From contig NZ_KB899249.1 of assembly GCF_000378105.1 (NCBI RefSeq), forward strand, positions 1 to 64,000: a stretch of 64,000 bases of DNA, read 5' to 3'. A program made the translations under genes and the position numbers. Source of the stretch: Rubritalea marina DSM 17716 (GTDB taxonomy: Bacteria; Verrucomicrobiota; Verrucomicrobiia; Verrucomicrobiales; Akkermansiaceae). Numbering within the stretch: the first letter of the stretch is position 1; every line of letters starts with the position of its first letter. Below, piece by piece: positions 8,270 through 10,428 of the stretch. The notes under the pieces were generated by a model. It ran no database searches, was not told the DNA's origin, and saw nothing but the letters and a program-made list of their open reading frames with translations.

Positions 8270-9658
8270 TTAGTCTTCAATGGACTCAATGATCGGCGTG
8301 CCGTAGAGGGTGAAGCCGGTGCATTCGTCGATGCGCACCTTCATGATCTTGCCAACGAGGCGATCAGGATTCCCTTCCATGATTACAATCTTGTTCTGCG
8401 GTGTGCGCGAGGTCAGCGTGTTCGGGTTGTTCTTTGATGGGCCGGTACAGAGGACTTCTTGGACAGAGCCAACGAGCGCGTTGTTCTTGCGCTGGGCAAT
8501 CTCGTTGACCACTGCGAGGAGTCGCTGGTTGCGGTCTTCCTTGGTCTTTTCGCTGTGTTGCTCCAACATGTCCGCTGCTGGCGTGTTGCGACGCTGTGAG
8601 TAGCGGAAGACGAAGCAATTGTCGAACTCGAGCTCCTTCACGGTGTTGAGGGTGTCCATGAAGTCTTCCTCAGTCTCCCCAGGAAAGCCGACGATGATGT
8701 CGGTGGTGATTGCCATGTCTGGGCGAGCCGCCTTCATCTTCTTGATGATCTCGACAAACTTCTCGTTCTTGTACGGGCGGCGCATTGCCTTGAGGATGCG
8801 GTCACTACCGCTCTGCATCGGGAAGTGGATGTGTGAGCAAAGCTTGGGAAGGTAGGTGAAGGCTTCCACGAGGTCGTCACGGTAACCGATCGGGTGCGGC
8901 GAAGTGAAGCGGATGCGCTCGAGCCCATCAATCGCATGCACTGCTTCAAGCAACTGCACGAATGGGGACTTGCCGTCGACCTTTGGAAATTCGGTGCGAC
9001 CGTAGAGGTTCACAATTTGACCGAGCAGGGTGACTTCCTTCACGCCGCGAGCGACGAGGTCCTTGCACTCCTCCACGATGTCGGCAATCGGGCGACCACG
9101 CTCGCGACCGCGGGTGTCGGGCACGATGCAGTAGGAACACTTCATGTTGCAGCCCTGCATGATCGATACGAAGGTGGCTGGCTCGATGCTCTCCACCGTG
9201 TGGTCCTTGATGGTATTCTGTGAGTCCTTCTCCTCGTCGATGTCGCAGATGTGGTCACCTTTGTAGGTGAGTTTGAGGTCGTCCATACGACGCTCCATGC
9301 GAGTCTGGAGGATGCTATCGACGTATTCAAAAACTTTGTGGTACTTCTGAGTGCCGACCACCACATCGAGGTGGGGGATATTATCAAAGAGTTCATTGCC
9401 GCGGGATTGGGCCATGCAGCCCATGAAGCCGTAGACGACGTGTGGGCGCTTCTGGCGGTGGCGCACCATGCTTCCCATCTTGCCGAGCGCCTTTTGCTCT
9501 GCCTGATCGCGCACGGAACAGGTATTCACAAGAATCGCATCTGCCTCGAATTCGTCCTTGGTTACGGTATAACCACCTTCAGTAAACATCTGAGCAACCT
9601 GCTCAGAATCACGTTCGTTCATCTGTCATCCGTAGGTCTTGATAAATACATTAGGCAT
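8270..9658 (-). CDS. miaB: tRNA-2-methylthio-N6-dimethylallyladenosine synthase MiaB, predicted selenoprotein (Sec11 encoded by TGA)
   Basis: MiaB is a radical-SAM methylthiotransferase that adds a methylthio group to i6A37 of tRNAs reading UNN codons. The frame is open from an internal ATG at 9622 (MNERDSEQ), but the family's conserved N terminus continues upstream in the same frame. From ATG 9658 it reads MPNVFIKTYG, TGA, QMNERDSEQ. The TGA (9626-9628) replaces the first of three Cys that bind the auxiliary 4Fe-4S cluster; the other two are Cys47 (NTCS) and Cys81 (GCMAQ). The radical-SAM motif is GCNMKCSYC (Cys170, 174, 177), and a TRAM-like C terminus is present. Full length is 462 residues, normal for MiaB. 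ATG 9658 has a strong Shine-Dalgarno sequence, and a SECIS-like hairpin follows the TGA. Sec insertion is inferred; a nonsense mutation or sequencing error is the alternative. Confidence 0.85.
9589..9607 (-). promoter_or_regulatory. Candidate bacterial SECIS element inside miaB
   Basis: On the minus strand an 8-bp perfect stem TCTGAGCA/TGCTCAGA closes a 3-nt GGT loop. The loop's first G is the 27th nucleotide after the in-frame TGA at 9626-9628 (26 nt between). The general bacterial SECIS pattern is a 4-16-bp stem, a 3-14-nt loop with G in its first two positions, and about 16-37 nt from the UGA; all three are met. The apical sequence GCAGGTTGC also resembles the apex of the E. coli fdhF SECIS. 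The hairpin is in coding sequence (codons for DSEQVAQM). Confidence 0.75.
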
Positions 9659-9667
9659 GATCTTTGT

Positions 9668-9673
9668 CTCCTT
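9668..9673 (-). promoter_or_regulatory. Ribosome binding site deciding the miaB start
   Basis: AAGGAG on the minus strand, 9 nt upstream of the ATG at 9658. It places initiation before the in-frame TGA. The internal ATG at 9622 has no comparable site. Most other start codons that I checked in the window lack a clear Shine-Dalgarno sequence, so this one is notable. Confidence 0.8.
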
Positions 9674-9846: not shown

Positions 9847-9921
9847 GCCCTGGTAGTTCAATGGATAGAACAAGGCTCTCCTAAAGCTTAGATTCGGGTT
9901 CGACTCCCGACCAGGGTACCA
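9847..9921 (+). tRNA. tRNA-Arg (anticodon CCU), CCA encoded
   Basis: The 75 nt fold into a full cloverleaf: acceptor GCCCTGG with CCAGGGT (G-U at the first pair), D arm GTTC/GAAC, anticodon arm AGGCT/AGCTT with loop CTCCTAA (anticodon CCT at 9880-9882), T arm TCGGG/CCCGA with loop TTCGACT, discriminator A and encoded CCA. It reads AGG codons. Its 3' half is repeated in the tandem array that follows, and tRNA 3' ends are common integration sites. Confidence 0.93.
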
Positions 9922-10428
9922 GCTGAAATGCCTTCGATGGGTTCTATCCATTGAACTATAGCGAACAAGGCTTTGGCTCCTGCGTCGCCCATGCGGGAAG
10001 CTTCGCTTTTCGCTCAGAGGGATGAAGCCGCCCGGCGGCACAGCATTCCTAAAGCTTAGATGGCGGTTCGACTCCCGACCAGGGTACCAGCTGAAATGCC
10101 TTCGACGGGTTCTATCCATTGAACTATAGCGAACAAGGCTTTGGCTCCTGCGTCGCCCATGCGGGAAGCTTCGCTTTTCGCTCAGAGGGATGAAGCCGCC
10201 CGGCGGCACAGCATTCCTAAAGCTTAGATTCGGGTTCGACTCCGCCCCAGGGTACCAGCTGAAATGCCTTCGATGGGTTCTATCCATTGAACTATAGAGA
10301 ACAAGGCTTTGGCTCCTGCGTCGCCCATGCGGGAAGCTTCGCTTTTCGCTCAGAGGGGTGAAGCCGCCCGGCGGCACAGCATTCCTAAAGCTTAGATTCG
10401 GGGTCGACTCCCGACCAGGGTACCAGCT
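9879..10428 (+). repeat. 168-bp tandem array built on tRNA-Arg 3' halves
   Basis: The array has a period of 168 bp: unit starts at 9879, 10047, 10215, and a partial fourth at 10383 that ends near 10428. Each unit begins with the tRNA 3' half, from the anticodon loop (TCCTAAAGCTTAGA) to the encoded CCA. The CCA-terminal A falls at 9921, 10089, 10257 and 10425. Then come a spacer, an inverted copy of the tRNA D arm (9941-9958, 10109-10126, 10277-10294), a direct GAACAAGGCT piece, and about 75 bp with hairpins such as GCCGCC-C-GGCGGC. Units differ at a few positions. Only the first unit is attached to a complete tRNA. Because 168 is divisible by three, a 180-codon antisense frame stays open; I regard it as spurious. 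Confidence 0.9.

Follow-up and report, generated by a model that had tools for sequence, protein, structure and literature searches.

Is the in-frame TGA in the miaB gene of Rubritalea marina DSM 17716 a mistake, part of an upstream leader, or a codon for selenocysteine (Sec)? MiaB is a radical-SAM enzyme that converts i6A37 of tRNA to ms2i6A37 by a mechanism that is debated. The gene lies within 64,000 nucleotides of contig NZ_KB899249.1 (assembly GCF_000378105.1), the whole stretch of DNA that was analyzed and is here called the window. A preliminary description of the window proposed that this MiaB is a selenoprotein. The conserved UGA, the exchange with Cys in relatives, a constrained hairpin and the presence of the Sec machinery all support that proposal at the level of sequence, and we consider it very probable that the gene encodes a selenoprotein, Sec-MiaB.

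The miaB gene of the window

The gene occupies 8270..9658 on the minus strand and encodes 462 residues up to a TAA stop if the TGA is read through. From ATG 9658 it opens with MPNVFIKTYG-TGA-QMNERDSEQ. The TGA (codon 11, 9626..9628, minus strand) is the sole inner stop. In a profile search in which U was replaced by C, the MiaB equivalog TIGR01574 gave 470.9 bits (cut-off 355.3), and the protein falls under the cut-offs of the RimO and MtaB models. The domains, all on the minus strand, are UPF0004, which holds the auxiliary cluster (PF00919, 9353..9649, 100.4 bits), Radical SAM (PF04055, 8642..9169, 107.3 bits) and TRAM (PF01938, 8294..8476, 38.4 bits).

The TGA stands in place of the first auxiliary-cluster cysteine, as had been claimed: residue 11 (TYG-U-QMN) aligns with the Cys of TYGCQMN in the solved MiaB 7mjz. 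The auxiliary-ligand motif of MiaB given in PMC5352715 is C-x35-36-C-x32-33-C, which the spacing C11-x35-C47-x33-C81 matches. Two of the three motif cysteines are present on the minus strand, Cys47 (9518..9520) as the second ligand (C-x35-C) and Cys81 (9416..9418) as the third (C-x33-C); the first is UGA, and the spacing is kept if this is Sec. Because the first motif Cys is UGA, the protein is classed as a Sec variant and not as a standard MiaB. The radical-SAM motif CNMKCSYC (9128..9151, minus strand; C170-x3-C174-x2-C177) is intact, and the positions read in the gene bear out the earlier statement that all the remaining cluster cysteines are in place. Compared with MiaB as known (TIGR01574; solved as 7mjv-7mjz), the whole length, the three domains, the radical-SAM motif and the presence of MiaA in the genome are the same, whereas the first auxiliary-cluster Cys is here UGA/Sec.

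MiaA, which makes the substrate of MiaB, scores 244 bits in the genome of the window (cut-off 148.65). Its presence is only a precondition for the formation of ms2i6A37. A second MiaB was not found in this genome; apart from miaB itself, the search matched only a sequence with 28% identity over residues 261-390.

Upstream of miaB, positions 9879-10428 of the window hold a tandem array of approximately 3.3 units of 168 bp that are 95% alike. The array begins inside a tRNA-Arg(CCT) gene (9847-9921) and so repeats the 3' portion of that tRNA. The arrangement suggests repeated insertion or duplication at the tRNA 3' end.

Codon 11 across relatives

In a search of the family to which the window belongs, 255 of 260 genomes had a match, in some cases to weaker relatives of the enzyme only. 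A flag for one inner TGA in the resulting table was rejected as a guide, as it often marked the terminal stop (e.g. L117, L120, L136), and codon 11 was instead read from the DNA. This was done for all listed matches that carried this flag and for some chosen from the rest; among the matches listed, those without an inner TGA cannot carry TGA at codon 11. Another 16 genomes with unlisted or split matches were searched, and 14 gave a MiaB start. The count covers 96 genomes and leaves aside the other 164 of the family, mostly of genera g2 and g8; the selA-bearing genomes G215, G221, G228 and G235, without a MiaB start to read, are also outside the counts.

Codon 11 is TGA in 59 of the 96 genomes and encodes Cys in 37 (TGC in 30, TGT in 7). 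The TGA genes belong to seven genera, with 10 of the 11 genomes read in g1, 1/1 in g4, 2/2 in g7, 12/14 in g9, 1/4 in g11, 10/14 in g12 and 23/24 in g13. Genera g3, g6, g8, g10, g14, g15 and g16 have Cys in all 26 matches read. The other 58 TGA proteins are 67-81% identical to that of the window. The preliminary description had named three outcomes that would speak against Sec: TGC or TGT on re-sequencing, a genome lacking selB, selA and tRNA-Sec, and relatives that all have Cys and no hairpin. None of these was borne out, the first as judged from the recurrence of the TGA. The assembly of the window is in 30 contigs and errors are possible, so that the TGA might be a mistake or, in a decaying pseudogene, an inactivating mutation. 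Against this, the same TGA recurs in 59 of 96 genomes and in one genome of another family (G620, below), by which a sequencing error at codon 11 is excluded, and the miaB of the window has no further inner stop. The probability left to error or decay is negligible.

Where translation begins also bears on the TGA. A purely mechanical list of open reading frames begins the gene past the TGA, at ATG 9622 (Met14), with 450 residues, and miaB is therefore probably truncated in annotation. If Met14 were the true start, the enzyme would work without its first cluster Cys and the upstream part would be a leader. However, codons 2-10 keep their amino acids, and nearly all of their variation among the 59 TGA genes is synonymous, so they are translated in frame; relatives carry TGC or TGT at codon 11. 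A start at Met14 alone is thus highly improbable, although both forms of MiaB could be made, the short one under selenium lack. The preliminary description had taken the AAGGAG site (9668..9673, minus strand) as proof that translation begins before the TGA. This Shine-Dalgarno-like site does lie 9 nt upstream of ATG 9658. As a general argument it carries less weight, since only 17 of the 59 TGA genes have a Shine-Dalgarno-like 4-mer in the 20 nt upstream, and the conservation of codons 2-10 is the stronger argument for a start at ATG 9658.

Pattern scans, whose draws of genomes overlap, extended the survey. A stricter TGA pattern gave 52 matches in 386 genomes of the order, of which 51 are in the family of the window and all among the 59. 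The remaining match, in G620 (L246) of another family, proved to be a MiaB gene that has the TGA and shares the hairpin core. The protein encoded there is 67-69% identical to those members of the family set that match it best, and its identity to the Cys-type relative L025 is 75%. With the pattern tightened further, 384 genomes of the class yielded seven matches, all known already. Thus TGA homologues, which had been suggested as a thing to look for across Verrucomicrobiota, do exist there. The origin of the gene in G620 may be vertical descent, transfer or independent gain.

A loose motif pattern in 387 genomes of the phylum gave five matches; four were unrelated sequence and were discarded, and only that of the window is a MiaB. 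Genomes beyond the phylum were covered through 80 loci, the best of the matches listed, in a scan that was biased against TGA because a Cys-containing peptide was among its patterns. The only TGA among these loci was that of L017, a Rubritalea MAG. Its start region is that of G216, and so it is uncounted in the 59.

Selenocysteine machinery and the predicted SECIS hairpin

In bacteria, SelB with Sec-tRNA reads UGA at a hairpin that follows the codon. The genome of the window (3.0 Mb, 30 contigs, 95.5% complete) was searched for this machinery, as the preliminary description had advised, and selA, selB, selD and tRNA-Sec were all found over their cut-offs. SelA scores 494.8 bits (1 of 14 control genomes is also over the cut-off), SelB 290.9 bits for a cut-off of 242.25 (2/14 controls over it) and SelD 381.2 bits, with one inner TGA (2/14 controls). 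The tRNA-Sec scores 54.3 bits for a gathering score of 47, which 5 of the 14 controls also exceed; ARAGORN also calls a tRNA-SeC with anticodon TCA.

The SelD of this genome (L097, G000:C4:174005-174934) has a CGGU motif with an in-frame TGA and is likely a selenoprotein itself, as judged from its gene. Behind this TGA a hairpin of 8 pairs with a GUU loop can be folded (z -2.41, 5/200 shuffles as good).

A selA match was found in 70 of the 260 family genomes, 69 of them over the cut-off. Among the 96 genomes read, 54 have TGA with selA, 5 TGA without selA, 12 Cys with selA and 25 Cys without selA; Fisher's p of 1.4e-9 for TGA versus selA is a guide only, since the genomes are related and no random draw. 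The 54 include G175, in which the match is in two pieces under the cut-off. All 25 genomes read from genera in which selA had no match have Cys. The five TGA genomes in which no selA was found are G208, G184, G240 and G243, which are 72-86% complete, and G183. The last (L127) is 96% complete in approximately 290 contigs, and either a missing contig or another route could account for it.

The UGA might also be read by another route, such as general reassignment, a suppressor tRNA or a tRNA-Sec charged with Cys, which would place Trp, Cys or some other residue at position 11. Relatives have Cys at this codon, and UGA re-coding with other residues is known in other bacteria. However, 14 of the 59 TGA genes terminate in TGA, so UGA is still a stop in these cells and is not reassigned. 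The presence of SelA, SelD and a Sec-type tRNA (TCA), and the in-frame UGA of SelD itself, likewise speak against insertion of another residue, which we regard as very improbable.

The preliminary description also placed a SECIS hairpin just downstream of the TGA, and it is recovered here as a predicted bacterial SECIS on the basis of its fold, conservation and synonymous constraint. The apical stem-loop (9589..9607, minus strand) is UCUGAGC-AGGUU-GCUCAGA and is conserved in the TGA genes. The first base of the stem lies 21 nt behind the U of UGA. The fold of minimum energy has one more pair, between the outer A and U of the loop, which leaves GGU.

The folding energy alone is modest, and the strong evidence is conservation. 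The 66-nt fold (9635-9570) has a z of -1.74 (8/200 shuffles as good), the 53 nt from the TGA -2.48 (5/200) and the 24-nt apical part, which was picked after seeing the fold, -3.43 (0/200). Codon-shuffle z values are -2.36 for the Sec group and -1.47 for the Cys group over 27 nt, and -1.64 and -1.23 over 51 nt. With RNAalifold over 66 nt the Cys genes take a different fold of lower energy (-24.4 vs -21.7), and over 45 nt the reverse is seen. Folding energy alone separates the Sec and Cys groups poorly and was rejected as evidence for a SECIS. Rfam at gathering scores gave no match in the window except the tRNA.

Conservation separates the two groups more clearly. Ranked by synonymous constraint, the 9-codon windows from residues 18, 17 and 16 take places 1-3 out of 359 when the 59 TGA genes are compared, and places 18, 37 and 50 out of 361 when the 37 Cys genes are. 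Codons 19-22 are nearly fixed in the TGA genes (GAG in 59, CAG in 59, GTT in 54, GCT in 47 with GCC in the other 12). The core GAGCAGGT is present in 59/59 TGA genes vs 15/37 Cys genes, and the longer core GAGCAGGTTGC in 54/59 vs 6/37, five of those six being from selA-bearing genomes. A decaying pseudogene would not keep its strongest synonymous constraint right behind the TGA, and this constraint also argues against a start at Met14.

Among 50 distinct TGA sequences, stem pair 23/37 covaries (UA 18, CG 14, UG 14, CA mismatch 4). At pair 25/35, 42 of these 50 have AU and 8 have A-C, whereas the pair forms in only 3 of 36 distinct Cys sequences. The stem mismatches in the 50 hairpins are A-C in 8, C-A in 4 and C-U in 1. 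Some mismatches included, a conserved hairpin directly behind the UGA is what is expected of a SECIS, and it is treated here as a predicted element.

Sec/Cys exchange and the role of residue 11

We propose that UGA codon 11 would be decoded as Sec by SelB and tRNA-Sec, directed by the hairpin. Sec11 would replace the first of three cysteines and, together with Cys47 and Cys81, hold the auxiliary [4Fe-4S] cluster. This ligand role follows the homology with MiaB. Both parts of the proposal taken together, that the cell inserts Sec and that its selenium binds the cluster, appear probable from the gene and its relatives. PMC13188914 describes many known selenoproteins as thiol-based oxidoreductases or as proteins with redox motifs, and Sec11 might instead be a redox or sulfur-relay residue beside the cluster. 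Its position, however, is that of the first Cys of the three-Cys ligand motif in PMC5352715, and Sec and Cys interchange repeatedly at this codon. A Sec that is inserted but is no ligand seems unlikely.

The exchange was followed in a tree of the 96 MiaB proteins (LG+G4, codon 11 masked). The best tree has 13 Sec/Cys changes, in which gains and losses are indistinguishable; 10 of them are forced by starred (well-supported) branches, and bootstrap trees have 12-13. According to PMC12013277, Cys homologues exist for almost all selenoproteins. In g12, four TGT genes with an intact hairpin core (L170, L171, L172, L183) stand beside very similar TGA genes. These four and one g9 gene (L190) are TGT MiaB genes of selA-bearing genomes in which the SECIS-like core is intact. 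From their sequences the four g12 genes look like recent Sec-to-Cys reversions, and the g9 gene (G174) looks alike. Such Cys genes are a natural control. With the repeated swap at one site, they make the ligand role testable through close natural pairs. The 12 selA-bearing genomes with Cys at codon 11 indicate that Sec is dispensable.

The advantage of Sec is the weakest step. A selenolate ligand may ease repair of the sulfur-handling cluster after oxidation, ease its rebuilding, or resist oxidation. That the benefit lies in easier repair or rebuilding is a tentative suggestion. Since no second MiaB was found in the genome, full-length MiaB and ms2i6A would be possible only with selenium, unless the portion that the assembly lacks contains another copy. 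The tRNA-Sec carries A36-A37-A38, the usual context for MiaA, and may therefore itself be a substrate of MiaA and MiaB. It is conceivable, if rather doubtful, that ms2i6A37 on UNN-reading tRNAs falls when selenium is short, that with tRNA-Sec as a substrate the enzyme helps to decode its own UGA, and that a sulfur-supplying cluster is here naturally ligated by selenium.

If the proposal is true, Sec-MiaB is an unusual addition to the selenoprotein families: a radical-SAM enzyme with a housekeeping role in tRNA modification that carries Sec where a ligand of the auxiliary Fe-S cluster normally stands. A routine enzyme of translation in some Verrucomicrobiota may depend on selenium, which may link selenium supply to decoding.

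Sec-MiaB is apparently an undescribed selenoprotein family, in keeping with the earlier remark that no established description exists. The 2026 table in PMC13188914, which covers 119 families and subfamilies of prokaryotic selenoproteins, lists neither MiaB nor any methylthiotransferase. A term search of the accessible text of PMC12013277, PMC9312934, PMC2398784 and PMC4807772 found no Sec-MiaB. The same holds for the open-access papers listed on selenoproteins in connection with MiaB, methylthiotransferases, radical SAM, Verrucomicrobi, ms2i6A and the auxiliary cluster. The best 25 of 37 NCBIfam hits of the protein include no selenoprotein model of MiaB.

Other proteins share single features with Sec-MiaB. 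HdrA and the NF005503 protein are not known to be methylthiotransferases or to have a tRNA substrate; like Sec-MiaB, both (the latter an Fe-S cluster domain protein) carry Sec in an iron-sulfur protein, according to the PMC13188914 table. TIGR04167 and TrsS (NF045646) are radical-SAM enzymes with Sec in the same table, where GxxU is listed as the motif of TIGR04167 and no motif is listed for TrsS, whereas the motif here is TYGUQMN. They appear to be other families, and neither is among the best 25 of the 37 NCBIfam hits. MnmH/SelU, which makes selenouridine in tRNA, also ties tRNA modification to selenium, but it places the selenium in the tRNA (PMC5372745), whereas in Sec-MiaB the selenium would be in the enzyme.
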